Assembly (NCBI GenBank): GCA_017960605.1
Contig: JAGCYV010000049.1
Coordinates: 1 to 47,354, forward strand
Reading direction: 5' to 3'
Source of the DNA: Bacteroidales bacterium
Lineage (GTDB): Bacteria > Bacteroidota > Bacteroidia > Bacteroidales > P3
DNA length: 47,354 bases
The notes below the pieces were generated by a model. It searched no databases, had not been told where the DNA came from, and saw nothing but the letters and a program-made list of their open reading frames with translations. Position 1 is the stretch's first letter. Every line of letters begins with the position of its first letter. Below, in pieces: positions 934 through 46,854 of the stretch. The position numbers were made by a program, and so were the translations under genes.

Positions 934-975
934 CTTTAATTTTCAACTTTCAATTTTCAATTCTCAATTTTCAGG
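934..975. repeat. period-7 imperfect array over the uvrC 3' end
   Basis: Six consecutive 7-base units of consensus TTTCAAT (variants CTTTAAT, TTTCAAC, TCTCAAT, TTTCAGG). The uvrC stop codon (957-959) and its last few codons are made of array sequence. The same unit recurs at 11111 and 20585. Confidence 0.85.
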
Positions 976-2855
976 TGCCGATATACGAGGTCGGCTTTCG
1001 CCGGCCCGATGGCGGCACTGAGGTCTTCGAGGGTTTGAAGCTGTATCTGCTTGATGCTCCCGAAGCGCAGCAGCAGGTCGTGGGCGGTCTTCTCCCCGAT
1101 GCCCGGGATGTCGGTCAGCGCCGTACGGAAGGTACCCTTCGACCGCTTCTCTTTGTGGAAGGTGATGGCGTAGCGGTGCACCTCGTTTTGTATCTGCTCC
1201 ATCAGGTGGAACAGTGGGTCGTTGGGCTTGAGCTGCACAACGGCTATGCTGTTTTTCGATTCTCTGACTCTTCGACTTTTCGACTTTTCGACTTTTCGAC
1301 TCTCTGCGAAGCAGAGTAATTCGTTGGTTCTGTGGCGGTCGTCCTTGGCCAATCCGGCGATGGGAATCTCCAGTTGCAACTGGTTGTGTATGACTTCCCA
1401 AGCCACCTTCATCTGCCCTTCGCCGCCATCGACGATGAGCAGGTCGGGCAGCGGCTCTCCGGATTCGTGCAGTCGCTTGTAGCGTCGCAGGATGACTTCG
1501 GCCATCGAGGCATAGTCGTCCGGCCCTTCCACGCTTTTGATATTGAATTTGCGGTATTGCTTGCGGTTGGGTTTGCCGTTGGTGAACCGAACCATGCCGG
1601 CCACAGGATAGGCGCCTTGGATGTTCGAGTTGTCGAAGCATTCGATCTCCATCGGCGGTCGCGGAAGGTTGAGGGCTTTCTGCAATCGGGCCAGCAACTC
1701 CCCGTTTTCGGTTTTCCGCTCTCCGTTGAGCAGCGCCTGCTGGTGTAAAAACTGCTTGCGGTAGCTTTCCACATTGCGCAGCGACAACTCGAGCAGCTTG
1801 CGACGGTCGCCGCGCGGGTCGGTCGATTGTTTGAGATATTCTTCCGGCAGGTCGGGCACCGCCATCGGCAGCACCACCTCGGTGGCGCTACTCTGGGTCT
1901 GCTCGTGCAGGGTGGGGATGACGGCGGCCAGGATCTCGGCGTCGCTCTCGTCGAGCTGCTTGCGTATCTCTTGACTCAGGCTGTAGATGACGGCGCCGTG
2001 CTTCACCCGCATGAAATTGACGTAGGCCTGCTTCTCGTCGCTCACGATGGTGGCCACATCGACATCTTTCACGTTGGTATCCACCACCGTCGAGCGGCTC
2101 TGGTATTCTTCCAGCAGGTGGATCTTGTGTTTTATGGCTTCGGCTTCCTCGAACCGCATCTCGCCGGCGAGGGCGAACATGCGGGCTTTGAGGTCGTCGA
2201 GCAGGTCGCCGAAGTCTCCTTTCAGCAGTCGGCGGATGCTTTCGATGGTGGCCAGATAGTCTTCCTTGCTCTGCAATCCCGCACAAGGGGCGCCGCACAG
2301 CCCTATCTGGTACTTCATGCAGGGTCTCGATGTCTTGAAGTCTTGAATCTTCCTGTCGCAGGTGCGGTATTGGAACAGCTGGCGTATGATGTCCTGCAGT
2401 TCCCTCAGGATGCGTCCGTTGGGATAGGGACCGAAGTATTGCCCTTTCACGTCTCTTTTCTGCCCTCCGCTGTGGCGGCGGGTGTAGAGCAGACGCGGAT
2501 ATTCTTCGTCGGTGATGCAGAGGTAGGGATAGCTCTTGTCGTCTTTGAGCATCGAGTTGTACCGCGGCTGGTAGCGTTTGATGAGGCTGTTCTCCAGCAG
2601 CAGCGCATCGACCTCGGTGGACACCACCGTGACCCTGATGTCGCACACCGACCGCACCAGCATCTTGATCTTGGGACTCTTGTCTTCGTAGTGCGAGAAG
2701 TAGCTGCTCACCCTCTTTTGCAGGTTGCGGGCCTTGCCCACATAAATCACCTTCCCCTCGGCATCCAGGTGCTGATACACACCGGGGTTCTCGGGGATGG
2801 TCTTCAGCCGCAGGGCGATGCGGTCGATGTGGGGGTTGATTGAGGCGTCAATCAA
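957..2855 (-). CDS. uvrC: excinuclease ABC subunit C
   Basis: UvrC makes the 3' and 5' incisions of nucleotide excision repair with UvrA and UvrB. The 632-residue product shows an N-terminal GIY-YIG domain (PENPGVYQ, GKVIYVGKARNL), a four-cysteine segment near residues 155-190, a UVR motif (EMRFEEAEAIKHKI), the RNase H-like nuclease (ECFDNSNIQG, LLIVDGGEGQM) and helix-hairpin-helix repeats at the end (LTDIPGIGEKTA). The start is a TTG at 2853-2855, 8 bases inside gldH; no ATG fits upstream of the conserved N-terminus, so the two genes look translationally coupled. Two segments look foreign to the family: about residues 376-385 (GERKTENGE) and 516-534 (lysine, arginine and serine rich). Both coincide with short tandem DNA arrays and both lie in linkers outside the catalytic motifs, so the enzyme is probably active. 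Confidence 0.93.
   Translation of the reverse strand: MIDASINPHIDRIALRLKTIPENPGVYQHLDAEGKVIYVGKARNLQKRVSSYFSHYEDKSPKIKMLVRSVCDIRVTVVSTEVDALLLENSLIKRYQPRYNSMLKDDKSYPYLCITDEEYPRLLYTRRHSGGQKRDVKGQYFGPYPNGRILRELQDIIRQLFQYRTCDRKIQDFKTSRPCMKYQIGLCGAPCAGLQSKEDYLATIESIRRLLKGDFGDLLDDLKARMFALAGEMRFEEAEAIKHKIHLLEEYQSRSTVVDTNVKDVDVATIVSDEKQAYVNFMRVKHGAVIYSLSQEIRKQLDESDAEILAAVIPTLHEQTQSSATEVVLPMAVPDLPEEYLKQSTDPRGDRRKLLELSLRNVESYRKQFLHQQALLNGERKTENGELLARLQKALNLPRPPMEIECFDNSNIQGAYPVAGMVRFTNGKPNRKQYRKFNIKSVEGPDDYASMAEVILRRYKRLHESGEPLPDLLIVDGGEGQMKVAWEVIHNQLQLEIPIAGLAKDDRHRTNELLCFAESRKVEKSKSRRVRESKNSIAVVQLKPNDPLFHLMEQIQNEVHRYAITFHKEKRSKGTFRTALTDIPGIGEKTAHDLLLRFGSIKQIQLQTLEDLSAAIGPAKADLVYRHLKIEN
1253..1308. 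repeat. in-frame period-8 array inside uvrC
   Basis: Seven 8-base units of consensus TTTTCGAC (variants TCTTCGAC, TCTCTGAC, TTTTCGAT). It encodes the basic stretch RKVEKSKSRRVRESK, where UvrC homologues normally have a short loop before the PLF segment. Confidence 0.85.
1700..1727. repeat. in-frame period-7 array inside uvrC
   Basis: Four degenerate 7-base units (CCCCGTT, TTCGGTT, TTCCGCT, CTCCGTT). They encode NGERKTENGE in the linker before the RNase H-like domain. The units vary more than in the other arrays. Confidence 0.55.
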
Positions 2856-3330
2856 GGTGGCTGTAGTCTAACTTGGCTTTCTCGATTCTTACGGCTACGC
2901 TGTGGATGCCTTCCAGGTCGTATTGGCTGGTTTGCTGGCCCACCTCCATGCGGTACTGTCCTTTGCTGTTGAAGCTGAAATAGCTGCGCACACGTCCTTG
3001 GGCATAGCGGTAGCCCTCCTGCATCTCTCCGCGCCAGCGCTCTTTCTCTTTCAACGCCACGCTGGTCAGGATACGGCGTTTCTCGCCGTCGGGGCTGACG
3101 ATGTTCACCGCCAGCGGGACCGTGTTGTAGCGGTAGTGCAGGGTATCTACCGCCACCGTGATGTCGATATTGTAGTAGTTGTCGATATTCGGCACATGGA
3201 ACGAGAACTCTTCCATCGTGAAACGGTTCCAGATGTTGCGGTCAAACGTGTGGCTCTCGTCCAGTATATTTTTCTTTCCGCAGGAGCACAGCAAGCATAC
3301 TCCCATCAAAGCAATCAGTAACTTCCTCAT
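2848..3330 (-). CDS. gldH: GldH-family lipoprotein
   Basis: A 160-residue lipoprotein of the GldH family, known in Bacteroidota as a component linked to gliding and type IX secretion; its biochemical role is not established. A short signal peptide ends in LLCSC, so Cys17 is the predicted lipidation site. The body is beta-rich, with the family features SFHVPN and the ILTSVALKEKERWRGEM segment. The ATG at 3328-3330 is clear. The gene overlaps the uvrC start by 8 bases, and the spacer to asd is filled by a period-8 array. Two T9SS cargo genes lie further upstream on the same strand, which fits a secretion role, although shared regulation is inferred only from order. Confidence 0.8.
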   Translation of the reverse strand: MRKLLIALMGVCLLCSCGKKNILDESHTFDRNIWNRFTMEEFSFHVPNIDNYYNIDITVAVDTLHYRYNTVPLAVNIVSPDGEKRRILTSVALKEKERWRGEMQEGYRYAQGRVRSYFSFNSKGQYRMEVGQQTSQYDLEGIHSVAVRIEKAKLDYSHLD

Positions 3331-3335
3331 TTGTC

Positions 3336-3390
3336 TTGTCTCCTTCTCTCCTTATCTCCTTCTCTCCTTATCTCCTGTCTCCTTGCCTCC
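3336..3390. repeat. period-8 array at the asd/gldH junction
   Basis: Seven units, six of 8 bases and one of 7, alternating TTATCTCC and TTCTCTCC, with TTGTCTCC and TTGCCTCC at the ends. The asd terminal stop codon (3368-3370) and its last residues GRQGDRR lie inside the array. Confidence 0.85.
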
Positions 3391-4393: not shown

Positions 4394-4433
4394 CTTGTCA
4401 ACCTATCAACCTATCAACTTATCAACCTATCAA
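4394..4433. repeat. period-8 array between T9SS cargo gene and asd
   Basis: Five 8-base units of consensus CCTATCAA (one CTTGTCAA, one CTTATCAA). It fills the 39-base spacer and includes the stop codon of the upstream gene (4430-4432). Confidence 0.9.
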
Positions 4434-6967
4434 CGTACCAGCGTCACCGTTCCTTTGGCCACCCTTGTGCGGTCGGGTTCAAACACATTGGTGTAGCGCA
4501 CGAAATAGACGTAGGCTCCCTGCTCGCAAGCGTTGCCGTTCATATCGCGGCCGTCCCACATGCACTCCACCTCCTCGCAGTGATACACCAGTTCGCCGCG
4601 ACGGTTGTAGATGTACATCTCCATCGTGAGGGCATGTTCGCCGATGGGGCCGAACAGGTTGTTGCCCGCGGTGTTGCCGGGAGTGAAGATATTGGGTATG
4701 TAGAGGGTCTCCTTGTTGAAGGGGATCACCACCGAGGTGTCGGCGCTGCACCCGTAGGGGCTGCCGGCCGTCAGGATGATGTGGGCCTCGTCGATGTCGA
4801 TCGGGGCGGTGTAATAGACCATTGTGCCCGTCTGCTCCGATCCGTCGGGGAACTTCCACAGGCTGCTGCTGCCGCCGTCCGACACATCGGTCAGCTCCAC
4901 TGTCGTCTGGTCGAACGTGAAGTGGTCGATGTTCGTGTGGATACGGGGCGTCAGGGGATACAGCGTGAAGTCGAGCTGCACGATATCATAGCAGCCGAAC
5001 TCATTGAGCACCATCGAGGTGTCCTCGGCCGCGGTGGCGGTGTTGCTCTGATAGTAGGTGCGGCCGTTGCCGTCGGTCCAGGTATAGGGCTTGCAGTCGG
5101 CCACGTGCTTCACCAGATGGCGCACGGTGTGGAACTTCAGATCCAGGAATACGATGCTGTCGCATTTCGGCTGCGACACCGTATCCACGCGGATGAATGA
5201 GGTCGTGCGGTAGGTCTCGTTGGTCAGCGGCCAGTAGTACTCCTCTCCGTCGCATTTATCCACCTTCACCGTGTCCATGAAGTTGGGGAACACCTTCACT
5301 AAGCAGTACGAGTTGCTGTCGCAGCCGTTGTTGTACGACAGGCTCACCTGGATGCGGATACTGTCTATCTTGTTCGGCGTCAGGCCGTCGGCGGGCAGGT
5401 TGTTCGAGTTCAGTTTGACGGAGATGTGCTTCAGCGAGTCGTCTGCCACAATCTGGCCAATATCCAGCAGGTTCAGCGGCAGGGCCACTTCCTGCCCGTT
5501 GTTGATGCGGGTCATCTGCCAGCTGACGCCCGTGGTGTCGTTCAGCGACGGGAATTCGAGCGTGAGGTCGGCCGTGGTGCCGGCGCAGATGTTCTTCTCA
5601 TGGACGAGGGGGGTGTTATCCACGGGGTGCAGCGACGTGAAGTTGTCGCCGTCCATGCCGATGACGATGGTGTCACGCAGGTTGTACCACATGTCGTCGG
5701 CGTTCTGGAAGCGCAGCACAAAGCAGTACCTGGAGGTACGGGTGGGCTTGACATAGGCCAGCGTAAGGCTCTCGCACGAGGGGAAGTCCTGCATGGAAGT
5801 CGGCAGGTCTTGCTGCATCTTGACATAGTAGCCGTTGGTGTCCTCCGGGTCGTTGATGCTCAAGCGGACGGTGTCGCCGTTCTCGAAGATACGAATCCAG
5901 TAGTATTCCAGTTCGGTGAATCCCTGGGGCGTGAAGCGCCAAGCTTGCTCGTCAATTTCTTGTGCGCTGGTCATGGTGTTGGTTCCGACAGGGAAGTAGG
6001 CAGCGTGGGCACCGGGATGTACATTCCATGTAGAGGATGAGGGAATACCCTGGGTCTGTGGCTTTCCGTCGGCATTTTGAATGCCGATCAAACCCCAGTT
6101 GCACCACCCACAGTTGGTGTTGCCACGGCGGCGGCGTTTGACATGCACTTCGATGATGTTCGAGCCTTCATAGCAGATGATTTGGTAACTCTGCCGGTTA
6201 TCGGTGTTGCTGCCGTTGGGATACCAAGGCAACTCGTTGTACGAGGCAATAATTTTGCGGCAGGGGTAGATGTCTTTGATGCCGTACCAGATGCCCTGAT
6301 ATCCGCTCATGTTTCCGCCAGGGTCAGTGTCTTGATACACACCGTAAATGGCATCACGGTAGTAACTGGCGACGTTGTAATAATGAGCCTGGTCGCTTGG
6401 GTCGCTTGACCAGGGAATGGGCGGCTTTACATCGTAGGAGCAACTTTGGTTGGCTCCAGAGGGGTCGAAGGTGATAAGTCCGTTACCGGCAGCCACGAAC
6501 GAGGTCTTTTTCTGGCCGAAGAAGAAGAACGGGAAGGGATGGGCTCCGTTGGCCGTGCTTTGTGGCAACTGCTGCAGGGCACAGAACTTGTCATCCGCGT
6601 TGTTGGGTAACTGGGACCCATAGTGGAAAGTGGTGTCGGCAGGCTCGTAGGGAATCTCATCCACTGTGTATTGTCCGTTGAAGTCTCTCACAGGGATGTA
6701 GGGCATGCACGACAGGACCAACTCGCGCTGGGTGCAGGTGACGGCGGTATCCCAGCCGCGCTCGAGGTATTTCTGCTGCGGCGTGTGGTCGTGCTTCTGC
6801 TTGATTTGCACCTCGGGGCAGGGAGCCAACACTTCGGGCCACTGATACTGTCCACAGTTCCAGGCTTCGGTGGTGTCGCTGGTTCCCCATTCGGTGAACT
6901 GCGCCTGTGCGCCGGCGGCGGTCAGCAGCAGCGTGGCGGCTAAAATAAGAACATGTTGTTTATGCAT
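4430..6967 (-). CDS. secreted protein with T9SS type B sorting domain (paralog 2)
   Basis: An 845-residue exported protein. A Sec signal peptide (LILAATLLLTAAGAQA) opens the ORF. The C-terminal ~90 residues (IPNIFTPGNTAGNN, MYIYNRRGELVYHCEE, WDGRDMNGNACEQGAYVYFV) are the gliding-motility-associated C-terminal domain that directs substrates through the type IX secretion system. The body is rich in cysteine and aromatic residues, with a PKD-like segment just before the sorting domain. It is a tandem paralog of the next gene upstream: both share LSCMPYIPV, FNGQYTVD, NGLITF and CYEGSNIIEVHVKRR in the same order at nearly the same length. Enzymatic or binding function is not recognisable. No separate promoter is visible in the 62-base gap, so it is probably co-transcribed with its paralog. 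Confidence 0.85.
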   Translation of the reverse strand: MHKQHVLILAATLLLTAAGAQAQFTEWGTSDTTEAWNCGQYQWPEVLAPCPEVQIKQKHDHTPQQKYLERGWDTAVTCTQRELVLSCMPYIPVRDFNGQYTVDEIPYEPADTTFHYGSQLPNNADDKFCALQQLPQSTANGAHPFPFFFFGQKKTSFVAAGNGLITFDPSGANQSCSYDVKPPIPWSSDPSDQAHYYNVASYYRDAIYGVYQDTDPGGNMSGYQGIWYGIKDIYPCRKIIASYNELPWYPNGSNTDNRQSYQIICYEGSNIIEVHVKRRRRGNTNCGWCNWGLIGIQNADGKPQTQGIPSSSTWNVHPGAHAAYFPVGTNTMTSAQEIDEQAWRFTPQGFTELEYYWIRIFENGDTVRLSINDPEDTNGYYVKMQQDLPTSMQDFPSCESLTLAYVKPTRTSRYCFVLRFQNADDMWYNLRDTIVIGMDGDNFTSLHPVDNTPLVHEKNICAGTTADLTLEFPSLNDTTGVSWQMTRINNGQEVALPLNLLDIGQIVADDSLKHISVKLNSNNLPADGLTPNKIDSIRIQVSLSYNNGCDSNSYCLVKVFPNFMDTVKVDKCDGEEYYWPLTNETYRTTSFIRVDTVSQPKCDSIVFLDLKFHTVRHLVKHVADCKPYTWTDGNGRTYYQSNTATAAEDTSMVLNEFGCYDIVQLDFTLYPLTPRIHTNIDHFTFDQTTVELTDVSDGGSSSLWKFPDGSEQTGTMVYYTAPIDIDEAHIILTAGSPYGCSADTSVVIPFNKETLYIPNIFTPGNTAGNNLFGPIGEHALTMEMYIYNRRGELVYHCEEVECMWDGRDMNGNACEQGAYVYFVRYTNVFEPDRTRVAKGTVTLVR

Positions 6968-6982
6968 AGTTGTATATTTTGT

Positions 6983-7031
6983 TTCTCAATTCACAATTCA
7001 CTATTCGCTATTCGCTTTTCACTTTTCACTT
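6983..7031. repeat. period-7 array between the two T9SS cargo genes
   Basis: Seven 7-base units drifting in order from TTCTCAA through TTCACTA and TTCGCTA to TTCACTT. It ends inside the stop codon of the upstream paralog (7030-7032). Confidence 0.9.
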
Positions 7032-9558: not shown

Positions 9559-9579
9559 CTCGATGTAGGTTTTATCCTG

Positions 9580-9587: not shown

Positions 9588-9698
9588 CGATTTTTATCCT
9601 AATAGAGACCCTTTTGACTCTTTTTGTTGTCAAAAAAGCAATAATTAACTTTTTTTAACAACACACTACGTCTTGATATTCAGCTCAGAATCCCCTAT

Positions 9699-9764
9699 GA
9701 CCTAGTATTGACCTAGTATTGACCTAGTATTGACTATATAATGACTATATAGTGACTATATAGT
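9699..9764. repeat. period-11 array, six units in two blocks
   Basis: Six consecutive 11-base units in perfect phase: three identical GACCTAGTATT, then GACTATATAAT and two GACTATATAGT. A partial seventh (GACTCC) follows. It lies in the 245-base gap between the end of mltG and the promoter of the T9SS cargo genes. Confidence 0.95.
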
Positions 9765-9803
9765 GACTCCTTTTTTTGTATGGTGTCATAAGGGTGTGAA
9801 TGA

Positions 9804-10733: not shown

Positions 10734-11122
10734 AGCAGTTTCTGCATACGGATGGTGTCGATGTAGCGGCCGTCGATGTTGAGCCACTCTTTGAATCGGC
10801 CGCACTCCTCGTATCCCGCTTTGCGGAAGAGGGCGACGGAGGCGGTGTTGGTGGCGGCGATATCGGCGAAAATCGTGTGAAGTGAGAAGTGTGAAGTGTC
10901 TAGGTTTTCAAGCTCTTTCAGCATCGCCAGCGCGTAGCCTTGCCGGCGGTATTCGGTGGCGACCATGATGCCGACGGCACAGCGGTGGTTGAGTGGGTCG
11001 TAGTTGTACAGATCCACACAGCCGTAGGGCAGCGCATAGAGCCGCAGGCTGCCGGAGGATAGCGATGCTCCTTCTTCGGCTTTTAATTCTACAATAGGTA
11101 TATCGGGAGTTTTAACTTTCAA
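10730..11122 (-). CDS. GNAT-family N-acetyltransferase, N-terminally shortened
   Basis: A GNAT acetyltransferase related to the SpeG/RimJ group. Acetyl-CoA binding (VATEYRRQGYALAML), the following IAATNTASVALFRKAGYEECGR and the C-terminal strand are intact. Homologues usually have about 50-60 more residues before CVDLYNYDP, including the first strand and helices that shape the substrate site; here a nondescript 30-residue leader replaces them. The only usable start is a TTG at 11120-11122, one codon after the recG stop and in the same frame, inside a period-7 array. A second array encodes about residues 72-83 (NLDTSHFSLHTI). The end overlaps the mltG start by 4 bases. It may be a decaying gene or a minimal functional form; the acyl acceptor is unknown. 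Confidence 0.65.
   Translation of the reverse strand: MKVKTPDIPIVELKAEEGASLSSGSLRLYALPYGCVDLYNYDPLNHRCAVGIMVATEYRRQGYALAMLKELENLDTSHFSLHTIFADIAATNTASVALFRKAGYEECGRFKEWLNIDGRYIDTIRMQKLL
10874..10908. repeat. in-frame period-7 array inside the GNAT gene
   Basis: Five 7-base units around AGTGTGA (CGTGTGA, AGTGAGA, AGTGTGA, AGTGTCT, and a degenerate last unit). They lie between the acetyl-CoA site and the IAATNTASVALFRK segment. Confidence 0.7.
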
Positions 11123-11131
11123 TTTTCAACT
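11111..11131. repeat. period-7 array at the recG/GNAT junction
   Basis: Three 7-base units (TTTAACT, TTCAATT, TTCAACT) of the TTTCAAY family. The array contains both the recG stop (11126-11128) and the probable TTG start of the GNAT gene. Confidence 0.75.
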
Positions 11132-14335: not shown

Positions 14336-16228
14336 TCAAAGTCTCTTCAGGTTGCGAATCAGGATGGCGAAGTCGGTGGCGGTACTATAATGGCGCATGT
14401 ATCGCAGCATGAGGCGCTCCTGCAGGTCGCTGGCGGCATTAGGTAGCAGGGCCGAGGGGGAGAAAACCCCGCATCGGCCAGTGTAGCCCACCCAGGTCAG
14501 ACGTCCTGAGAGCACCTTGAGGCAGTCGGCGAAGTAACGTCCTTTGTTTTCCTGAAACCAGAGCAGGACAGGGAAGAACAGCAACAGCAACAGGGCGCTG
14601 CCGAGGTCGAACATGCGTTTGGTGCGGCGGCAGGTGTCGGTGCTGATGGTGTCCAGGTCGGTGAGGTAGAGTTCGTCGGGCGAGAGGATGTTCTCGCTGC
14701 CGATGACGTAGTCGCCGGCAGCAGGGGCAATCTTGTAATCTACGCCGGTAGTGCGCAGCTGGGCCATAAGTTCAATGGTGTGACGGATGTCCTGTCCGCA
14801 GAACACCACCTCCTCGGCGTGTTCGATGCGGATGAGGTCCTGCAGGTGGCGTGAACTGCTGTCGCCAGTGGTGACGAGGTTCTCCGTGGGGATCCCCATT
14901 GAGGTGTAGAGGGTCCGCAGGCGTTCGGTCTGTTCGGGCGAGCCGACAGCGATAACGCTCCCGCGCTTGCGTGCATGTAGTGCGTATCCTTTGACATGGC
15001 ATAGGCTCAGCACCACACGAATGATCAGTGTGCTTGCCAGCGTCCAGGCCGACCCTATCAGCAGCAGCATGCGGGAATAGCGCTGGCTTTCGTCGAGCAA
15101 TGAGTAGAACGCCAGCAGGAGCAGCAATCCGATGGCCATGCCGCGCACGATGCGTCCCGTACGCACCGGTCGGTCGTAGCCGCCGTGCAGCCAACTGCTG
15201 CACATCAGAATCAATATATACAGGGGAATGACCAGTGCTGTGTATTCGGTGGGGTAGTAGTCGGGTCCTACACCTTTGAAGTGCTCCCAGACGTGTTTGA
15301 GCAGCAAGAATCCTCCATAGGCAAAAAGAAAGTCGGTCACCGGCACCGCCACACGCTGAGCGGCGCGTTTGGCCCACGCCATCGCGGCACGCAGCCAGAT
15401 GGCCACATGCAGCAGGAGGGAAAACATACGGGCTCCGTGACCGGTGAAATAGCGCTTCACGAAGATGGACATCGCGTTGTAGAAGGTATAGACGTAGTTC
15501 ATCGACCCCTTCTTGGTGCTCTCGCCCTTATAGTGGATGATATGGGTGGTGGGCAGGTAGTAGTTCTTCCAGCCTGCCAACTTAATGCGCCACGAGTAGT
15601 CGATGTCCTCGCCGTACATGAAGTAACTCTCGTCCAGTCCACCGTTCTTTTCATAGACTTGTCGGGAGAACATCAGGAAGGCACCGGGCAGGATTTCTAT
15701 CTCGTTCACCTCGTCCTCGGGCAGGTGGCCCATATAGTAGGCCGCGATGCGCCGGTGATGGGGGAAAAGGTGGATTAGGCCGCTGATTTTATAGAATGAG
15801 GTCTCCGGGGTGGGAAATCCGCGTTTGCTCTCCGGCAGGTAGCGGCCGCTGCCATCGACCATCTTCACCGTCAGGCCTCCGCAGTCGGGATGCTGCTTCA
15901 TGAAGTCGGTGCACCGCACCAGGGTGTCGCGCTCTACCACCGTGTCGGGGTTGAGCAGCAGCAGGCGCTCGCCCGTGCAACGGGCGAGCGCCTGGTTGTT
16001 GGCCCGAGCGAAGCCTATGTTCTCCTTGTTGGCGATGACGTGCACCTCGGGGAAGTCCTGCTGCACCATATCCACACTTCCATCCACCGAGTCGTTATCC
16101 ACCACCCACACGTCAAGTTCCAATTCTTTCCCGTCGGTCAGCCTGCGGTCCGATTCATAGACCGACGACAGGCACTGCTTCAGGAAATACTTGACGTTGT
16201 AGTTTACTATGACTATGCTCAGAACCAT
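14336..16228 (-). CDS. GT2 glycosyltransferase fused to a degenerate sugar-phosphate transferase region
   Basis: A 630-residue fusion. Residues 1-~250 are a family 2 (GT-A) glycosyltransferase of the rhamnosyltransferase/WbbL type: SIVIVNYNVKYFL, VVDNDSVDGS, NIGFARANNQ, LLLNPDTVV, and FMYGEDIDYSWR as acceptor-site motif. The middle has several hydrophobic helices. Residues ~400-520 resemble the nucleotide-binding part of polyprenyl glycosylphosphotransferases, followed by CRRTKRMFDLGSALLLLLFFPVLLW, which matches the membrane entry of that family. The expected catalytic segment after it is replaced by KVLSGRLTWVGYTG and a short tail, so that half may be structural. It probably acts at the inner membrane in surface polysaccharide synthesis. 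The start ATG lies inside the period-8 array shared with the topA stop. Confidence 0.8.
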   Translation of the reverse strand: MVLSIVIVNYNVKYFLKQCLSSVYESDRRLTDGKELELDVWVVDNDSVDGSVDMVQQDFPEVHVIANKENIGFARANNQALARCTGERLLLLNPDTVVERDTLVRCTDFMKQHPDCGGLTVKMVDGSGRYLPESKRGFPTPETSFYKISGLIHLFPHHRRIAAYYMGHLPEDEVNEIEILPGAFLMFSRQVYEKNGGLDESYFMYGEDIDYSWRIKLAGWKNYYLPTTHIIHYKGESTKKGSMNYVYTFYNAMSIFVKRYFTGHGARMFSLLLHVAIWLRAAMAWAKRAAQRVAVPVTDFLFAYGGFLLLKHVWEHFKGVGPDYYPTEYTALVIPLYILILMCSSWLHGGYDRPVRTGRIVRGMAIGLLLLLAFYSLLDESQRYSRMLLLIGSAWTLASTLIIRVVLSLCHVKGYALHARKRGSVIAVGSPEQTERLRTLYTSMGIPTENLVTTGDSSSRHLQDLIRIEHAEEVVFCGQDIRHTIELMAQLRTTGVDYKIAPAAGDYVIGSENILSPDELYLTDLDTISTDTCRRTKRMFDLGSALLLLLFFPVLLWFQENKGRYFADCLKVLSGRLTWVGYTGRCGVFSPSALLPNAASDLQERLMLRYMRHYSTATDFAILIRNLKRL

Positions 16229-16265
16229 TAACGCATTAACACTTTATCGCATTAACACATTAACT
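16226..16265. repeat. period-8 array at the topA/glycosyltransferase junction
   Basis: Five 8-base units of consensus CATTAACA (one CTTTATCG). The first unit supplies the glycosyltransferase ATG (16226-16228), and the last overlaps the topA TAG stop (16264-16266). Confidence 0.9.
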
Positions 16266-18585: not shown

Positions 18586-18688
18586 GGTATGATGTTTATT
18601 TGTTCTATTCGTTTTTCGACAATTTGTCACCCTGCATAACGTATATATATTTTATTTATTGTATATGTATGAAAAAATATTTTCATAT

Positions 18689-18776
18689 CTCCTCAAGTTC
18701 TCCTCCCGTTCTCTTCCCGTTCTCCTCCCGTTTACCTCAAGTATGACTCAAGTATGCCTCAAGTATGGTTTAAGGA
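18689..18776. repeat. period-11 array, eight units
   Basis: Eight in-phase 11-base units over 88 bases. The first four are of CTCCTCCCGTT type, the next three of TGCCTCAAGTA type, and the last is decayed. It lies centrally between topA and nadE. Confidence 0.95.
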
Positions 18777-20501: not shown

Positions 20502-20512
20502 TATGAACGGTG

Positions 20513-20552
20513 ATTAGTAGTTAAGGAGATAAGTAGTTAAGTAGATAAGGCA
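20513..20552. repeat. period-8 array between nadE and the GWxTD gene
   Basis: Five 8-base units alternating TTAAGTAG and ATAAGTAG types (ATTAGTAG, TTAAGGAG, ATAAGTAG, TTAAGTAG, ATAAGGCA). It ends two bases before the next ATG, so it fills the position of the ribosome-binding region. Confidence 0.88.
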
Positions 20553-27339: not shown

Positions 27340-27636
27340 CGACACTTTGAAATTTTTTTTCAAAAAAAACACTCTTCAGCGCCGATTTGTTGATAACCTC
27401 GATAGGCCTTTGAAGATTAGTCTATTGTGTGTTGATTGTTTTTGTATCATGTTGAATCTATAATATTTGTGGCAATTGTTTGATAATCAAACCCCGTTTT
27501 TCGGGTGTGTATTTCTAAGTGATTGTAAGTGTGTCGGGTCGTCGGGTTATCCACCTAACTTGGTTGAAAACACACCCTCTTCGGAGCAATTTTTTTCTTT
27601 TGAAAAAAACACATTTCTTTCGTCGTGCCACCCCAT

Positions 27637-27691
27637 CAACTCCATTTCAACTCCGTTTCAACTCCGTTGCCCCTCCGTCTCACCTCCGTTG
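27637..27691. repeat. period-11 array, five units
   Basis: Five in-phase 11-base units: CAACTCCATTT, CAACTCCGTTT, CAACTCCGTTG, then two diverged units (CCCCTCCGTCT, CACCTCCGTTG). It lies in the dnaA/lpd gap. Confidence 0.92.
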
Positions 27692-27704
27692 AAAGACGGA
27701 GGGG
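27670..27704. repeat. 11-bp inverted repeat overlapping the period-11 array
   Basis: CCCCTCCGTCT (27670-27680) is perfectly complementary to AGACGGAGGGG (27694-27704) across a 13-base loop. The left arm is exactly one array unit; a further partial copy of the right arm follows near 27716. No T-run follows, so it is not a typical terminator. Confidence 0.75.
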
Positions 27705-27871
27705 AAGTGGACCTGAGACGGAGAGGGTATGGTGGCATGAACAACCATCCGAGTGCCTCTGCAAGGTTCATTGGCGAGGTCGGAGGGGATGTGAGGAGAA
27801 GAATCGGTTTTGTGTGAGATGTTGTAATACATGTGTTTACGTTGGAGTTGGCTGGCTTTTTGGTAATTTTT

Positions 27872-30347: not shown

Positions 30348-31330
30348 GCAAGCACGAGAAACATACCTACCGCTTCAACCCTCATACGCTGAAATATGAG
30401 AAGGTGTTTGTGTCGCTGCGCGACCAGGTGCGCCGCATCAGCTTCAGCGTGCTCTTCGGTGTGGTGCTGGGTGTGGTGCTTGTGTTTGTGGGCTTGCAGT
30501 TCATGGAAAGCCCCAAGGAACGGGCGATGGAACGCGAGCTGGCGCAATATCGCCGGCAGACACGTCTGTTGGGCGACCGTGTGGAACGTGCCGAGAAGGT
30601 GCTGGAAAATATCGAGGAACGCGACAATGTGCTCTATCGCACCATCTTCGAGAGTGCACCCATCAGCGATGCTGAGCGTCACAGCGGTATCGGTGGTGTG
30701 GAACGCTATGCCGCATTCGACCAGATGGAGAGCGGAAAGTTGCTGAAGAACACAACCAAGCGTGTCGATGACCTCACGAAGCGGCTCTATGTTGAGTCGA
30801 AGTCGCTCGACGAGATTTACGAGATGGCCCGCACCAAGAACGAGCGTATGGCGGCTATGCCGGCCATCATGCCCATCGCCAAGAACCAGTGCAAGGTGGT
30901 GAGCGGATTCGGTTACCGATTCCATCCGCTGCTCCACTACCGCCGTCTGCATACGGGCATCGACATGACTGCCCGGCAGGGTACACCCGTCTATGCCACC
31001 GGCGACGGGGTGGTGCGTGTGGCAGGCCGCAACCCGCAGGGGTTGAGTGGCTATGGTGTGGTGGCGGTGGTCGATCACGGCTTTGGATTCCAGACCCTCT
31101 ATGCCCATTTACAGGGCGTCAAAGTCAGGGTGGGGCAGAAGGTGAAACGTGGCGAGCAGATAGGCACTGTGGGTAGTTCTGGCATTTCCACTGGTGTCCA
31201 TCTGCACTACGAAGTCATCCAGAACGGCAAGAAGGTCGATCCGGTCTATTATTTCTTCAACGACCTCACTCCCGAGGAATACGAGGAGGTGCTCGATCTG
31301 GCCCGCCAGGAGAACCAGTCGATGAGTTAG
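30344..31330 (+). CDS. M23 family peptidase (membrane-anchored murein endopeptidase)
   Basis: A 328-residue inner-membrane protein with a periplasmic LytM/M23 zinc peptidase domain, likely cutting peptidoglycan cross-links or acting as an activator. A short basic cytoplasmic tail is followed by one membrane helix (SVLFGVVLGVVLVFVGLQF), a coiled coil (about 60-95), and the catalytic domain with FGYRFHPLLHYRRLHTGIDM (the His and Asp ligands) and GVHLHYEV (HxH). All four expected metal-site residues are visible. The start is TTG at 30344, overlapping the preceding stop (TTGA). The TAG stop lies at the edge of a period-7 array. Confidence 0.9.
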   Translation: MSKHEKHTYRFNPHTLKYEKVFVSLRDQVRRISFSVLFGVVLGVVLVFVGLQFMESPKERAMERELAQYRRQTRLLGDRVERAEKVLENIEERDNVLYRTIFESAPISDAERHSGIGGVERYAAFDQMESGKLLKNTTKRVDDLTKRLYVESKSLDEIYEMARTKNERMAAMPAIMPIAKNQCKVVSGFGYRFHPLLHYRRLHTGIDMTARQGTPVYATGDGVVRVAGRNPQGLSGYGVVAVVDHGFGFQTLYAHLQGVKVRVGQKVKRGEQIGTVGSSGISTGVHLHYEVIQNGKKVDPVYYFFNDLTPEEYEEVLDLARQENQSMS

Positions 31331-31352
31331 TGTTTAGCGTTCAGCGTTTAGT
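31325..31352. repeat. period-7 array between the M23 gene and ispH
   Basis: Four 7-base units (AGTTAGT, GTTTAGC, GTTCAGC, GTTTAGT). The first unit contains the TAG stop of the M23 gene, and the array ends directly before the ispH ATG. Confidence 0.85.
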
Positions 31353-31353
31353 T

Positions 31354-32217
31354 ATGGAGGTTAGGATTGACGAGCATGCAGGCTACTGCTTCGGGGTGGT
31401 GAAGGCTATCGGTGCCGCTGAGGAACAGTTGGCACAGTCGGGCAGCCTCTACTGTCTGGGAGACATCGTGCACAACAGTGCTGAGGTGGAACGCCTGAAA
31501 CATAAAGGAATGCGGGTGATTGACCACTCCGACCTGCTGCGTTTGCCGCAGGGGAGCCGCGTGCTGATACGTGCCCATGGCGAGCCTCCCGCCACCTACC
31601 ATATGGCCCGCGAACGCGGCATCGAACTGATAGATGCCACCTGTCCCATTGTGCTGGCCCTGCAGGAGCGTATCCGTCTAGGATACAATGAGATGCAGGC
31701 CGTCGGAGGGCAGATAATCCTCTTTGGGAAACCCGGACACGCAGAGGTGATAGGCCTCAATGGGCAGTGTGACAGTTCTGCCATCATCGTCAGCCATCCC
31801 GACGAGTTGGATCATATCGACTTCAGCCGTCCCATTCGGCTCTACTCCCAAACCACCAAGAGCCGTGACGAGTACCGCCGACTCACAGCCAATATCGAAG
31901 CCCGATTGCCCCAAGGGGCTGACTTTGTGGCTTTCGATACCGTCTGCAACCGAGTGGCCAATCGCGCCAAAGAGTTGGAGACTTTCGCATGCAGCGTCGA
32001 TGTGTTGCTCTTCGTGGCGGGTGCCAACAGCAGCAACGGACGCTACCTCTACGAATACTGCTGTCACGTGCAACCCCGCACCCACCTCATCGCCACTGCC
32101 GACGAGCTGCAACCCGCATGGTTCGACGGCGCCTCCCGTGTGGGTATCAGCGGTGCCACTTCCACTCCCCGATGGCTCATGGAAGAGGTGGCGGAAAAGT
32201 TAAGAGTTAAGAGTTAA
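31354..32217 (+). CDS. ispH: 4-hydroxy-3-methylbut-2-enyl diphosphate reductase
   Basis: IspH (LytB) is the last enzyme of the non-mevalonate isoprenoid pathway and makes IPP and DMAPP through an iron-sulfur cluster. The three cluster cysteines are Cys12 (AGYCFGV), the Cys in DATCPIV and the Cys in DTVCNRV; catalytic and substrate motifs IRAHGEPP, GKPGHAEVIG and GISGATSTP are present. The 287-residue length is normal. I take the ATG at 31354; the frame is open upstream to a GTG at 31330, but that adds array-derived residues only. Its last codons (LRVKS) and TAA are formed by a period-7 array shared with the recF leader. Confidence 0.95.
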   Translation: MEVRIDEHAGYCFGVVKAIGAAEEQLAQSGSLYCLGDIVHNSAEVERLKHKGMRVIDHSDLLRLPQGSRVLIRAHGEPPATYHMARERGIELIDATCPIVLALQERIRLGYNEMQAVGGQIILFGKPGHAEVIGLNGQCDSSAIIVSHPDELDHIDFSRPIRLYSQTTKSRDEYRRLTANIEARLPQGADFVAFDTVCNRVANRAKELETFACSVDVLLFVAGANSSNGRYLYEYCCHVQPRTHLIATADELQPAWFDGASRVGISGATSTPRWLMEEVAEKLRVKS

Positions 32218-32222
32218 GAGTT
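32199..32222. repeat. period-7 array at the ispH/recF junction
   Basis: Three identical 7-base units GTTAAGA plus a partial fourth. It encodes the ispH C-terminus, contains its TAA and runs up to the recF ATG. Confidence 0.9.
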
Positions 32223-33326
32223 ATGGTACTGGACAGGCTGACATTGACCAACTTCAAGAATTACGGCGAGGCCGACATCGCCCTCTGCGGCAACGTGAAC
32301 TGCTTTGTGGGCAACAATGGTGCCGGCAAGACCAACCTTCTCGATGCCGTCTATTACCTCTCTTTCTGCAAGAGTTACTTCAATCCTGTCGATATACAGA
32401 ATATCCGCTTCGGACAGGACTTCTTCGCTATTCACGGCCATTACGGCGACAGTAGCGCCTCCTGCATTCTCAAACGCGGGCAGCCCAAGCAGATGCGATG
32501 GAACAAGAAGACCTGCAAGACCTTGATGGAGCACATCGGGCGCATCCCGCTCGTCATTGTGTCGCCCTCCGACCAGACTCTTATCACCGGCGGGAGCGAC
32601 GTGCGCCGCAAGTTCGTCGATGGCGTTATCTCGCAGACCGACCGCACCTACCTCGACCATCTGGTGCAATACACCAAAGCCCTTGACCAACGTAACCGTC
32701 TGCTTAAGCAGATGTGGGAGGACCGCCTGTGGGAGGATGGAATGGTCGAAGTGTGGGACGAACAGCTTGTGCGTCATGGGGAATACCTCTACGAGCGTCG
32801 CCGGCGATTTGTGGAGGACTTCCGTCCGCTGTTCCGTGAGTACTATGGCAGTATCGCTGGTGCCGACGAGCCCGGCGAGATTACCTACAATTGCATCGAC
32901 AAGCCGCTCGACCTCCAGCTTCGCGACAGCCGTCAGGCCGACAAATACTCGCAATACACCAATGTGGGACCTCACAAGGACGACTTCCTCTTCTCCTTCG
33001 ACCCGCAGTCGGAGGTCACCCTCAAGCGATTTGGCTCGCAGGGACAGCAGAAAAGTTTCGCCCTCGCCCTCAAGCTCGCCCAGTTCCAGTACATGAACGA
33101 CTGCCTCGGGGAGAAGCCCATCCTGCTCCTCGACGACATCTTCGACAAACTCGACCTGCTGCGAGTGAAACAACTCATCTCCTTGGTCGGCAGCGAGCGT
33201 TTCGGGCAGGTGCTTCTCACCGACACCCAACCCGGCCGCGTGCAGGCCATCTTCGACGAACTCCCGCAGCTCGAACACCGCGTGTTCGACGTACAGAAAG
33301 GAGAAATCCATGAACTGGGAAGATAG
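32223..33326 (+). CDS. recF: DNA replication and repair protein RecF
   Basis: RecF is an SMC-like ATPase that, with RecO and RecR, loads RecA at single-strand gaps. The 367-residue product has the expected LDRLTLTNFKNY start, Walker A VGNNGAGKTNLLDA, the signature region SQGQQKSFALALKLAQ (here GSQGQQKSF) and Walker B PILLLDDIFDKLD. Its 3' end overlaps the DciA-like gene by 17 bases. The position a few kilobases from dnaA keeps the ancestral origin-proximal linkage. Confidence 0.96.
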   Translation: MVLDRLTLTNFKNYGEADIALCGNVNCFVGNNGAGKTNLLDAVYYLSFCKSYFNPVDIQNIRFGQDFFAIHGHYGDSSASCILKRGQPKQMRWNKKTCKTLMEHIGRIPLVIVSPSDQTLITGGSDVRRKFVDGVISQTDRTYLDHLVQYTKALDQRNRLLKQMWEDRLWEDGMVEVWDEQLVRHGEYLYERRRRFVEDFRPLFREYYGSIAGADEPGEITYNCIDKPLDLQLRDSRQADKYSQYTNVGPHKDDFLFSFDPQSEVTLKRFGSQGQQKSFALALKLAQFQYMNDCLGEKPILLLDDIFDKLDLLRVKQLISLVGSERFGQVLLTDTQPGRVQAIFDELPQLEHRVFDVQKGEIHELGR

Positions 33327-33622: not shown

Positions 33623-33677
33623 CTCCCTTGTTACTCCTTTGTTACCCCTTTGTTAAGCCGTTGTTAAGCGCTTGTAA
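33623..33677. repeat. period-11 array between the DciA-like gene and an ABC exporter
   Basis: Five in-phase 11-base units (CTCCCTTGTTA, CTCCTTTGTTA, CCCCTTTGTTA, AGCCGTTGTTA, AGCGCTTGTAA). Its edges also form an 8-bp inverted repeat, CCTCCCTT (33622-33629) with AAGGGAGG (33676-33683). It occupies the 139-base gap, where I see no other element. Confidence 0.93.
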
Positions 33678-44207: not shown

Positions 44208-45092
44208 TCAAATATAGCTCACGATGCTCTTCTGGGCATCGGAAATTCGGCATGCAAATGTACTAAATTTTTCCAAAATGGCGTGAAAAATTATCTCTTT
44301 CGCAAATTGTTCGCTTTCATAGTGTCCGATGTCGGCCAGCGCCATTTTGGGGGTGGCCTCCTGGAAGTCGTGGTATTTCAGGTCGGCCGTGAGGTAGAGG
44401 TCGGCGCCCGCCTCCTTGGCGGCGTCGATGAAGTCGGCCCCGCTTCCGCCGCACAACGCCATGCGCCTGACCTTCGCCGTCAGGCTGGCGCATGGGGCGA
44501 AGCGGATGCAGGGGATGCCCGTCAGCGTCTTCACCTTCAGCAGGAACTCCTTCAGGGGCACGGGCTCCTCCAGCTCGCCCACCATCCCGAGGCCCACCTG
44601 ATCTGTTGATAGGTTGTCGGCTGAGCCGACGGCACACCAGATATGTTGATACGTTGTCGGCCCACCGGATGGACAAGAACTGATGAACTTATCAACGTTA
44701 ATCTTATCAACAGAAGATTGTTGCAGGATGCGACACTCTTTCAGCCCCAGTTTCCCGGCCAGCACGCCGCTCACGCCCCACGCCAGGCTGTCGAGGTTCG
44801 TGTGGGCCGCATAGACGGCCGTGCCGCTGCGCAGCAGGCGGTAGAGCAATCCGTTCCGCTCGTCGGTGATGCGCTTCACCCCGTGGAAGATCACCGGGTG
44901 GTGGGTCACGATGAGGTTCATGCCGAGGGCCTTCGCCTCGTCGAGCACCGCCTCCGTCAGGTCCAGGGCCACCAGCGCCCCGCGGCATTCCTCCCCGCCG
45001 TCGCCCAGCAGGAATCCGCTGTTGTCATAGTCCTCCTGCAGCTCGGGATGGAACACGCTGTCCAGATAATCCGTAATCTCCTTGATTTTCAT
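44208..45092 (-). CDS. Nif3-like dinuclear metal centre protein (DUF34)
   Basis: A 294-residue member of the Nif3/YbgI (DUF34) family, cytoplasmic metalloproteins of uncertain function. Metal ligands are visible in VTHHPVIFHG, AAHTNLDSLAWG and IGHYESEQFAKE. The usual middle insertion of long Bacteroidota homologues is absent; instead about residues 124-164 hold an unconserved segment (KINVDKFISSCPSGGP, HIWCAVGSADNLSTDQ) whose DNA contains two 18-base near-identical repeats and further TTATCAAC-like words. The segment lies between the two halves of the fold and leaves the ligands intact. Confidence 0.85.
   Translation of the reverse strand: MKIKEITDYLDSVFHPELQEDYDNSGFLLGDGGEECRGALVALDLTEAVLDEAKALGMNLIVTHHPVIFHGVKRITDERNGLLYRLLRSGTAVYAAHTNLDSLAWGVSGVLAGKLGLKECRILQQSSVDKINVDKFISSCPSGGPTTYQHIWCAVGSADNLSTDQVGLGMVGELEEPVPLKEFLLKVKTLTGIPCIRFAPCASLTAKVRRMALCGGSGADFIDAAKEAGADLYLTADLKYHDFQEATPKMALADIGHYESEQFAKEIIFHAILEKFSTFACRISDAQKSIVSYI
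44209..44216 (-). promoter_or_regulatory. possible -7 element for the zinc-ribbon/hutH genes
   Basis: On the minus strand TATATTTG matches TAnnTTTG, 29 bases before the ATG at 44179 and at the end of the Nif3 gene. No good TTTG is found at the -33 position. Confidence 0.35.
44603..44660. repeat. direct repeat inside the Nif3-like gene
   Basis: Two near-identical 18-base copies (core TGTTGATA-GTTGTCGG) start at 44603 and 44643, 40 bases apart. More words of the TTATCAAC type follow at 44688-44711. All lie in the unconserved inserted segment. Confidence 0.7.
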
Positions 45093-45134
45093 ATATCGAG
45101 TATCGAGTTTAACTTTTCACTTTTCACTTTCAAA
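45093..45134. repeat. period-7 array between the barrel gene and the Nif3-like gene
   Basis: Six 7-base units drifting from ATATCGA and GTATCGA through GTTTAAC to TTTTCAC. It touches the Nif3 ATG on one side and contains the stop of the upstream gene (45130-45132) on the other. Confidence 0.85.
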
Positions 45135-46352: not shown

Positions 46353-46359
46353 ATCAAAA

Positions 46360-46517
46360 TGGGACAAGGGACAGTGGGACAGTTCGATTTTTGTTTTCCA
46401 CTATCTCCCAAATTATACCTCTATATCTATATATTTATATAAATATATAGATATAGAATTTTCTTTTGAGTTTTTTGGATACCCTTATTTTTAACTGTCC
46501 CACTGTCCCGTGTCCCA
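46360..46517. repeat. nested inverted repeat
   Basis: Outer arms 46360-46384 and 46493-46517 are complementary at 24 of 25 positions and consist of GGGACA-type 7-8 base units. Inside, 46421-46437 and 46440-46456 form a perfect 17-bp AT-only-rich palindrome (CTATATCTATATATTTA and its complement) around two bases. No ORF of substance lies within. Confidence 0.9.
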
Positions 46518-46578
46518 CCTCTCAAAAAAAAGTTTGATTTTTTTTCGCAACCATTCGTAAACCGCAATGTCGTGGTCG

Positions 46579-46586: not shown

Positions 46587-46697
46587 CATCGTTGAAAGGG
46601 ACGCAACCGGCCACTGCAAACCGACACAACAAACACAAAAAGAGTTCTTTGACATGCTGAGAAACCAATCACCTATGAGACCACCACCCTCCACCCG

Positions 46698-46741
46698 CCT
46701 ACCTACGGCCTAACTACGGCTTACCTACGGCTTAACACGCT
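46698..46741. repeat. period-11 array, four units
   Basis: Four in-phase 11-base units (CCTACCTACGG, CCTAACTACGG, CTTACCTACGG, CTTAACACGCT) in the leader of the DUF6266-like gene. Confidence 0.9.
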
Positions 46742-46751
46742 CCCCCAAAAA

Positions 46752-46793
46752 TTTCACCTCTCACCTTTCAGCTTTCACCTTTCACCTTTCACC
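46752..46793. repeat. period-7 array, six units
   Basis: Six 7-base units of consensus TTTCACC (one TCTCACC, one TTTCAGC), directly downstream of the period-11 array. Confidence 0.9.
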
Positions 46794-46833
46794 TCACACT
46801 CAACTACCCCAAAACTACCCTAACTACCACTCA

Positions 46834-46854
46834 ATTCACAATTCACCATTCACA
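46834..46854. repeat. period-7 array, three units
   Basis: Three 7-base units, ATTCACA and ATTCACC, about 55 bases before the ATG at 46911. Similar units occur at 6983. Confidence 0.75.

Follow-up and report, generated by a model that had tools for sequence, protein, structure and literature searches.

Repeat Arrays with Units of 7, 8, and 11 bp in a Bacteroidales Genus as Candidate Parts of Small Insertion Elements

Introduction

Short tandem repeats of bacteria are usually put down to local replication slippage. Here, we analyzed imperfect repeat arrays of fixed period in a 47,354-nt stretch of DNA from an uncultured gut Bacteroidales bacterium (contig JAGCYV010000049.1, positions 1 to 47,354, assembly GCA_017960605.1), hereafter called the window, in which units of 7, 8, or 11 bp occur at gene junctions. 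We propose, with a probability of roughly 0.6, that these arrays belong to small, non-autonomous insertion elements, which spread and turn over within the genus and of which a survival filter retains those at tolerated sites.

The closest described repeats are direct repeats of the heptamer TAACTGA from marine Beggiatoaceae, Cyanobacteria, and some Bacteroidetes (PMC4679880). Like the present arrays, these heptamers are described, in the part of the study available to us, as lying near start or stop codons, as bearing stops in one orientation and being translatable in the other, and as sometimes having no counterpart in the corresponding spacer of a close relative (PMC4679880). As judged by eye, TAACTGA, a rotation of the reverse complement of AGTTATC, is near to the AGTTAAG and AGTTATG units of our arrays. 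Whereas the available part of that study follows one heptamer, the present genome harbors several heptamer and octamer families, arrays inside conserved genes, arrays with inverted arms, and a separate 11-bp class. Judged against that part of PMC4679880, the 7-bp class is to be grouped with the heptamers of Beggiatoaceae, Cyanobacteria, and Bacteroidetes: 52 intergenic arrays of period 7 were found where 0.2 were expected, and 33 of 68 class-7/8 arrays in co-directional spacers adjoin a stop codon. The 8-bp and 11-bp classes do not share the unit of 7 bp, and only the 7-bp class is placed there.

Seven-nucleotide repeats also form the P6b stem of the Nostoc tRNA-Leu intron, where, according to the available part of the report, 7-nt units stand on both sides of the stem and follow the class motifs TDNGATT and NNTGAGT (PMC4476775). 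By eye, an ATGATTT unit of our genome fits the former and an ACTCATA unit of the congener G008 the latter; the Nostoc repeats, as far as described there, concern a single intron locus, whereas our arrays occur genome-wide and also in genes. Borg tandem repeats likewise occupy spacers and genes and vary between close relatives, but the in-frame repeats in the available portion of that work have units divisible by three (PMC9879509), whereas the frame-breaking lengths 7 and 8 prevail in our sample. Repetitive extragenic palindromes (REPs) measure 20–40 bp, mostly carry a GTAG or CGTC tag, and are mostly located downstream of genes; they are high-copy palindromes, of which some families are species-specific and some copies lie in genes (PMC3733652, available part). 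Like REPs, the 11-bp class is palindromic, high-copy, and dispersed, yet it differs in size and tag: its arms consist of tandem 11-bp units, its elements are common in divergent spacers, the palindrome of the congener G012 exceeds 100 bp and carries GTAG within every paired unit, and the units of the family F2 from our genome and of the congener G010 lack GTAG. Among the best-ranked open-access papers, no report of 11-bp intergenic array families was found.

Materials and Methods

The window is contig 17 of a 1.91-Mb assembly, which is 78% complete. By TopA identity, the closest named genomes are Bacteroidales UBA3834 (92%), a sheep-colon genome (86%), and RUG197 (85%), whereby records of the own genome were possibly excluded from that search. 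For comparison, 30 genomes of the same genus were taken from a larger group, which together with the own genome (G000) gives 31 genomes. Arrays were detected with Tandem Repeats Finder (score 30) and with a stricter match-run scan. The own-genome sample comprised 956,926 bp of the 1,913,474-bp assembly, with one all-N contig dropped, and dinucleotide-shuffled spacers served as a control. The congener scan covered 28 congeners and 1,194 kb, and multiples of the periods were folded into 7, 8, and 11. Context statistics refer to the 233 of 265 own arrays that fall into classes 7, 8, and 11 including multiples; the 32 arrays of other periods were excluded. Genes were called with a simple purpose-written gene caller, so that some assignments of arrays to genes may be wrong. 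Motif families of classes 7 and 8 were grouped by eye. Searches for species-private motifs used patterns of two units with one mismatch allowed; the matches reported are places, of which one array can hold several.

Period Spectrum and Genomic Context of the Arrays

The initial annotation of the window had listed 16 arrays of fixed period at gene junctions. Tandem Repeats Finder recovered 13 of them with the stated period, the same 13 passed the stricter scan, and on the genome scale such arrays stand far above shuffled spacers. Besides the 52 intergenic arrays of period 7, the own genome contains 22 of period 8, 71 of period 11, 10 of period 16, and 9 of period 22, compared to only three of period 9, one each of periods 10 and 12, and none of period 13. 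In shuffled spacers, 0.2 arrays of period 7, 0.2 of period 16, and none of periods 8 and 11 occurred. The congeners show a similar spectrum (7, 52; 8, 20; 9, 9; 10, 6; 11, 82; 12, 2), and, counting the own one, intergenic 11-bp arrays were found in 24 of the 29 genomes sampled. Eleven loci of the same order (4.3 kb of spacer) yielded one 11-bp array, a second row counted there being a 33-bp repeat, and 13 Bacteroidia loci from beyond the close group (33.5 kb of spacer) yielded 12 intergenic arrays of period 7, two of period 8, and none of period 11. Eighteen loci from Firmicutes and others (35.8 kb of spacer) held zero intergenic arrays and 11 arrays in genes, one of them with period 11.

Within genes of the own genome, periods 7 (33 arrays) and 8 (21) exceed periods 9 and 12 (two each), and all periods divisible by three together amount to 20. 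This contrast is weaker in the congeners, with 55 and 11 in-gene arrays of periods 7 and 8 vs 10 and 8 of periods 9 and 12.

The period class tracks the genomic context, as had been noticed in the window. Of 151 class-7/8 arrays, 64 are located within called genes, compared to 1 of 82 for class 11 (p = 9e-14), and that single case is a 33-bp coding repeat; in the congeners, 4 of 86 class-11 arrays are located in genes. In co-directional spacers, the stop codon of the upstream gene is overlapped by the array or at most 7 nt away in 33 of 68 class-7/8 arrays vs 0 of 32 class-11 arrays. Read on the coding strand, 30 of those 33 arrays contain a stop in one frame or more, and 24 do so in all three, whereas 16 of 35 class-7/8 arrays farther downstream lack any stop. 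Arrays in genes away from the 3' end are stop-free in 45 of 58 cases. Stop-bearing arrays at gene ends and stop-free arrays within genes form the pattern expected from insertion that is blind to orientation and followed by selection.

Class 11 had further been assigned to larger, often divergent spacers. Its restriction to spacers holds on the genome scale, but spacer length accounts for a good part of its link to divergent ones. Among spacers of at least 150 bp, class-11 arrays occupy 29/59 of the divergent, 24/91 of the co-directional, and 3/9 of the convergent ones (raw numbers of arrays, 36 divergent and 4 convergent). Between 150 and 300 bp, the corresponding rates are 3/21, 8/50, and 1/6, and between 300 and 600 bp they are 20/28, 11/25, and 1/2. 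The two classes are not as separate as supposed; a mixture, formerly ascribed to the spacer at 46698–46854 only, occurs in 9 of 115 array-bearing spacers.

Motif Families and Their Species Privacy

In the initial annotation each locus was thought to have its own motif. This view had to be given up, as the array motifs form dispersed families common to many loci. Class 7 includes the families AATTGAA/GTTGAAA, AGTGAAA/GTGAAAG, AGTGGTC, AAACACT, and GATTTAT, and class 8 the families GTTGATAN, GCTTGATT, and GACTGAGT. Class 11 comprises F1 (GTCAATACTAG), F2 (TCAACTCCGTC), and F3, a mosaic group whose 11-bp units vary along the array. The F1 array often lies within a longer conserved element, for which patterns found 23 places (locus L021 counted twice). 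On its left flank, inspected by eye, the last ~25 bases are common to 12 of the 23 places and the whole 60 bases displayed to 9 of those 12; a conserved right end, ...GTCATAACGGATTCA, stands at 17 places, mostly followed by ...TTAGTATCAGnnnGTTAC. The number of units varies among F1 copies from about 2.4 to 5.4.

Privacy to one species was directly observed for four 11-bp motifs. The F1 pattern has 89 matches in the own genome and 0 in the 30 congeners; the G012 motif has 179 matches and the G010 motif 127, each with 0 in the 30 other genomes; and the UBA3834 motif has 26, with 0 in four other genomes. The heptamer ATTGAAA in three copies, by comparison, is present in 21 of 31 genomes, whereby it is no commoner in G014 than its reversed control.

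Presence, Absence, and Insertion at Orthologous Sites

The proposed comparison of orthologous junctions was carried out between species. Array presence differs at 16 of the 31 junctions for which one or more congeners allowed comparison, arrays are absent throughout at 14, and one junction has arrays throughout. The 16 polymorphic junctions show a median extra length of 41 bp, and the carriers' median spacer is the longer one at 13 of them. In the topA/nadE spacer, differing 11-bp arrays are found in the window, G010, G008, and G015, whereas none above threshold is present in G002, G004, and G001; in this spacer, locus L120 has another 11-bp array, and UBA3834 has yet other units flanking a run of N. 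In the spacer between the gene of a type IX secretion system (T9SS)-type protein and mltG, differing 11-bp arrays occur in the window, G008, G012, and G009, and none above threshold in G010, G002, and G015. The dnaA/lpd spacer likewise carries 11-bp arrays with differing motifs in several species. An 11-bp element lies within the terminal part of the G010 leucyl aminopeptidase gene, whereas the corresponding site of the window is empty.

Insertions were also detected within coding sequences. Alignments gave 43 rows of at least 8 aa, some of which repeat one insertion under two window genes, and 9 of the 43 contain arrays with periods of 7 or 8 bp or multiples thereof. At one uvrC loop, the inserts differ between species: the window carries an 8-bp array, G001 a 7-bp hairpin-like insert, and G002 an insert with a 10-bp period, whereas five others aligned have no insert; uvrC of G012 contains a 7-bp hairpin-like insert at a different site. 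The gene of a glycosyltransferase has hairpin-like inserts in G010 and G001, and the Nif3-like gene of the window, compared with one congener, has extra sequence made of GTTGATAN pieces. Rickettsia palindromic elements are palindromic inserts kept in frame in protein genes and are not known to be made of short tandem units. The hairpin-like in-frame inserts of uvrC (G012, G001) and of the glycosyltransferase gene (G010, G001) are alike to them in their way of working only.

Polymorphism at 16 of 31 junctions together with in-frame coding insertions of 7/8-bp units favors the last of three ideas put forward at the outset, namely slippage, phased protein binding, and an insertion process so far undescribed.

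Palindromic Anatomy of the 11-bp Class

The F2 array represents one arm of a palindrome, which continues with a short loop and an inverted second arm (17 readings of 13 palindromes). A palindrome of the form (ACGGTAGTATT)3-loop-inverted arm was found in G012 at all 20 places fetched by the motif, two of them with unequal arms. In the 18 equal-arm copies, 98.3% of cells pair. Changes on both sides affect positions 18/100 in 8 copies and positions 22/96 in 2, whereby these 18 copies are related. There are 10 such both-side-changed cells compared to 5.2 in shuffles, and both the cells and the covariation score lie above nearly all shuffles. The co-changing arms of G012 are compatible both with copying from a hairpin template and with selection for pairing. 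In G012 and F2, pairing drops toward background past ~55 bp from the center. The best-seen 11-bp palindromes have a length of ~110 bp with arms of ~55 bp.

An inverted partner within 150 bp (score 10) was found for 27 of 82 arrays of class 11, 16 of 90 of class 7, and 13 of 61 of class 8, compared to 0, 2, and 0 with shuffled flanks and 2, 1, and 3 with the flanks of other arrays. At the gathering threshold, Rfam gave 0 matches in the window.

Insertion Elements With a Survival Filter as the Favored Explanation

According to the explanation we favor, the match between period and context would reflect a survival filter that acts on two classes of elements. Class A would consist of short runs (~20–60 bp) that repeat 7- or 8-bp units from a limited, genus-wide vocabulary, and some of these runs would have a second, inverted arm. 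It would insert at many sites and persist where harm is least. Elements directly behind or across a stop codon would be tolerated in the stop-supplying orientation, those in permissive protein loops in the stop-free orientation, and those in spacers in both. Class B would consist of dispersed palindromes with both arms made of 11-bp units (~55 bp each where best seen), which would persist in spacers only, away from gene ends and starts. The constant period with a changing motif would then arise from each species re-amplifying its own 11-bp sequence. Copying probably would proceed via a hairpin, and either the machinery responsible or helix geometry would dictate the unit length; one turn of A-form RNA or plectonemic DNA comprises about 11 bp.

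More tentatively, the 11-bp palindromes might constitute a new self-renewing chromosomal element of about ten units, often located in longer promoter spacers, of which the sequence is replaced wholesale between species, with no change in unit length or anatomy. If so, the unit length would be fixed not by the sequence but by a machine that copies or reads it, such as an enzyme copying from a hairpin template or a protein or RNA that reads the sequence and co-evolves with it. The change of the 11-bp motif at constant period represents a natural experiment, in which related species have differing sequences in the same spacers. It also calls for caution, since inserted repeats shape spacer lengths, C-termini, and protein loops in these genomes.

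Several observations weigh against the favored explanation by small insertion elements. F2-like dimers (two mismatches, fetched DNA) occur not only in the own genome (34) but also in G009 (16), G002 (5), G034 (3), and G012 (3), with none in seven others; thus, the 11-bp families are not all private. At 3 of the 16 polymorphic junctions the longer spacer is the array-free one, and 13 of the 58 arrays called inside genes carry stops in some frame. Compared with miniature inverted-repeat transposable elements, our elements have palindromic arms, and no target duplication was recognized by eye in occupied/empty pairs. No mobilizing enzyme was found. The Y1_Tnp domain is present in 22 of the 31 genomes, including the own assembly with one such gene, but 9 genomes gave no match, among them the 11-bp-array carriers G008, G009 (95% complete), and G016 (100% complete), and the repeats adjoining the own Y1_Tnp gene are, by eye, unlike the 7-, 8-, and 11-bp arrays. 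The F2 arms pair to just 54–72% within 44 bp of the center, scarcely better within than between copies, and the both-side-changed pairs of G012 show no excess (2 vs 1.6 in shuffles). As inverted partners exist for a minority of the arrays, hairpins are not universal, and the mean folding z-scores (class 11, -1.46; class 7, -0.10; class 8, -0.91) hardly surpass the control (-0.99).

A hairpin common to all arrays is not supported, given this minority of partners and the folding energies near control.

Alternative Explanations

It is rather unlikely, though first among the alternatives, that the 11-bp arrays are phased sites of a DNA-binding protein upstream of promoters, with co-evolution of site and protein shifting the motif while the spacing is kept. 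The period is near one helical turn, and differing 11-bp motifs occupy the orthologous topA/nadE, T9SS/mltG, and dnaA/lpd spacers in several species. In addition, in all 69 class-11 array-gene pairs having a TAnnTTTG box, the Bacteroidetes -7 motif (15–160 bp before the start; spacers of at least 100 bp, a divergent one possibly counting twice), 25 bp or more separate the array from the start-nearest box downstream of it, but this figure is partly forced by the distance of the arrays from starts. Array orientation relative to genes is mixed, several orthologous spacers have no array, and divergent and co-directional spacers are occupied at like rates between 150 and 300 bp, though not between 300 and 600 bp.

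Somewhat less probable is local replication slippage in a prone lineage, acting independently at each site, with selection clearing the genes. The varying unit number of the F1 copies indicates that slippage still adjusts it, and heptamers dominate the long repeats of many prokaryotes, for which an explanation by polymerase contact has been proposed (Mrazek 2007, as cited in the available part of PMC4679880). However, identical units recur at dozens of loci, periods 9, 10, 12, and 13 are rare in spacers, and the excess of 7 and 8 over 9 and 12 within own genes, weaker in the congeners, is the reverse of what slippage with a frame filter would give and contrasts with the units divisible by three of in-frame Borg repeats (PMC9879509, available part). 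Slippage alone, also one of the early ideas, is thus a poor fit; three prevailing unit lengths, units shared across the genome, and frame-breaking lengths in genes of the own sample point to an origin beyond slippage plus selection.

That the arrays act as transcription terminators or mRNA-stabilizing hairpins appears improbable. Some arrays form long inverted repeats, several are located after genes, and 3 of the 9 convergent spacers of at least 150 bp carry class 11, so that there is no avoidance. Yet class 11 shows no preference for these few convergent spacers over divergent (29/59) and co-directional (24/91) ones, and class-7 regions fold no better than shuffles. The lack of a convergent preference disfavors this explanation, less firmly than slippage is disfavored; the raw divergent and convergent counts overstate the objection, as convergent spacers are short. 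The least credible alternative, REP/REPIN elements moved by a RAYT-type Y1 transposase, would account for palindromic, dispersed, species-specific families with some copies in genes and for Y1_Tnp in most genomes, but no single GTAG or CGTC tag marks the foot of a short hairpin, the arms are tandem units, and it is further weakened by the genomes without a Y1_Tnp match, including the carriers G009 and G016, and by the different repeats, seen by eye, at the own Y1_Tnp gene.

Candidate Machinery and Element Ends

The insertion elements proposed here were also inspected for machinery and ends. The own Y1_Tnp (RAYT-like) gene at L096:3300-4500 has about four longer imperfect direct repeats alongside (CATGAGGTGCGTCCCATCACAATGCTG..., by eye). 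A search of the own assembly (78% complete) for reverse transcriptase PF00078 gave no match, and neither did a plasmid search with the window F1 copy nor a phage search with the copy of locus L110. The sequence TATCAGnnnGTTA, which stands beside 11-bp arrays in some species (F1 copies of G000, L205, L203, L190), may mark one end of the element. Its matches exceed those of the reversed control in G000 (18/1), G009 (16/4), G016 (16/4), G002 (12/3), G003 (13/0), and G034 (10/4) and are near or below control in most other genomes; 3 of 30 fetched places had a scored 11-bp array nearby, namely L190 (G041), L203 (G031), and L205 (G009).

A link between loss of the palindrome nuclease SbcD and array density is only suggestive. 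The SbcD family cut-off was passed in 11 of 31 genomes, but in just 8 of 14 control genomes, too. The array-rich G000, G010, and G012 gave no match, and G001, G004, G007, and G009 gave weak ones. The median density per 100 kb was 2.5 in the 11 genomes with SbcD vs 7.7 in 18 without for 11-bp arrays (p = 0.04) and 1.2 vs 7.1 for 7-bp arrays (p = 0.03), in a comparison uncorrected for relatedness and with 15 to 957 kb per genome. G037 has SbcD together with many 11-bp arrays.

Arrays of the Window

The stricter scan added four arrays to those listed initially, at 1266-1301 in uvrC, 20585-20611, 46414-46455, and 44591-44661 (period 40). The junctions at 11111, 31325, and 35383 remained below Tandem Repeats Finder score 30; in the match-run scan 31325 reached 9, and the other two gave nothing of at least 9.

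On the minus strand, a 7-bp array with AATTGAA on the coding strand (938..973) overlaps the 3' end of uvrC and contains its TGA stop (957-959), and the 8-bp array GTCGAAAA inside uvrC (1253..1301; 1266-1301 in the stricter scan) is an insertion compared to congeners. An 8/16-bp array at the gldH-like/asd junction (3335..3390, minus) overlaps the 3' end of the downstream asd fragment, and an 8-bp array of the GTTGATAG family (4398..4444, minus) separates the asd fragment from a large T9SS-type protein gene. The asd region at 3368-4390 consists of two open frames, which are one gene in seven congeners, and represents either a broken gene or an assembly error. A 7-bp array of AGTGAAA/GTGAATA units (6983..7031, minus) lies between two paralogous genes. 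These neighboring paralogues (4430-9633) encode proteins that are 46% identical and show weak, sub-cut-off matches to a T9SS type B sorting domain.

The F1 copy of the window (9673..9771, minus, ends placed by eye) comprises the 11-bp array 9698-9768 (GTCAATACTAG) and a diverged right end; it has no usual left arm, and TGACTATATAG units stand where other copies have it. Also on the minus strand are a weak TTTCAAC-like 7-bp repeat (11111..11131), which is visible in the sequence under the scan thresholds, and an 8/16-bp array between the glycosyltransferase gene and topA (16226..16264), where G010 has a 7/14-bp array and seven other congeners have none above threshold. The divergent topA/nadE spacer holds an F3 mosaic 11-bp array (18688..18767, minus), for which some relatives have other 11-bp motifs at the orthologous site.

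The plus strand carries the 8/16-bp array GATAAGTA 3' of nadE (20512..20549) and a TTTCAAT 7-bp array (20585..20611), which had been missed initially; both scans detected both of them. In the F2 element (27636..27725, plus), the left arm is the 11-bp array 27636-27689 (TCAACTCCGTT), which is followed by the GTTGAAAGAC loop and the beginning of the inverted right arm. A weak 7-bp TTAGTGT repeat (31325..31353, plus; score 9) is located at the M23-like peptidase/ispH junction, and an AGTTAAG 7-bp array (32198..32223, plus) spans from the ispH stop to the recF start with TAA in all three frames. The 11-bp array CTCCTTTGTTA ahead of the msbA-like gene (33623..33675, plus) is missing from the 12-bp spacer of G010.

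On the minus strand, both scans found a 7-bp array of the AGTGAAA family (45094..45130). An 8-bp A/T array (46414-46455), also overlooked at first, was found with the stricter scan. The last divergent spacer combines three plus-strand arrays detected by Tandem Repeats Finder, namely the 11-bp array GCCTACCTACG (46697..46736), a TTTCACC 7-bp array (46752..46794), and a second, 7/14-bp array of CAATTCA (46832..46860). Within the Nif3-like gene, a period-40 array (44591..44661, minus) has GTTGATAN units with a GTCGGCTGAGCCGAC hairpin between them and is extra sequence compared to G010, the sole congener aligned. The GTCGGCTGAGCCGAC hairpin was seen inside 8-bp GTTGATAN arrays of period 40 not only at 44591-44661 of the window but also at L105:10505, L105:19387, and L011:3823. 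Further palindromic repeats, located in spacers or in frame inside a gene, are CCCCTCTCCAATCGGAGAGGGG in G012 (L064:18977-19055), and CCCCCTTTCCAAGGG-like palindromic repeats were observed in G007 and G004 in the gene next to recG.

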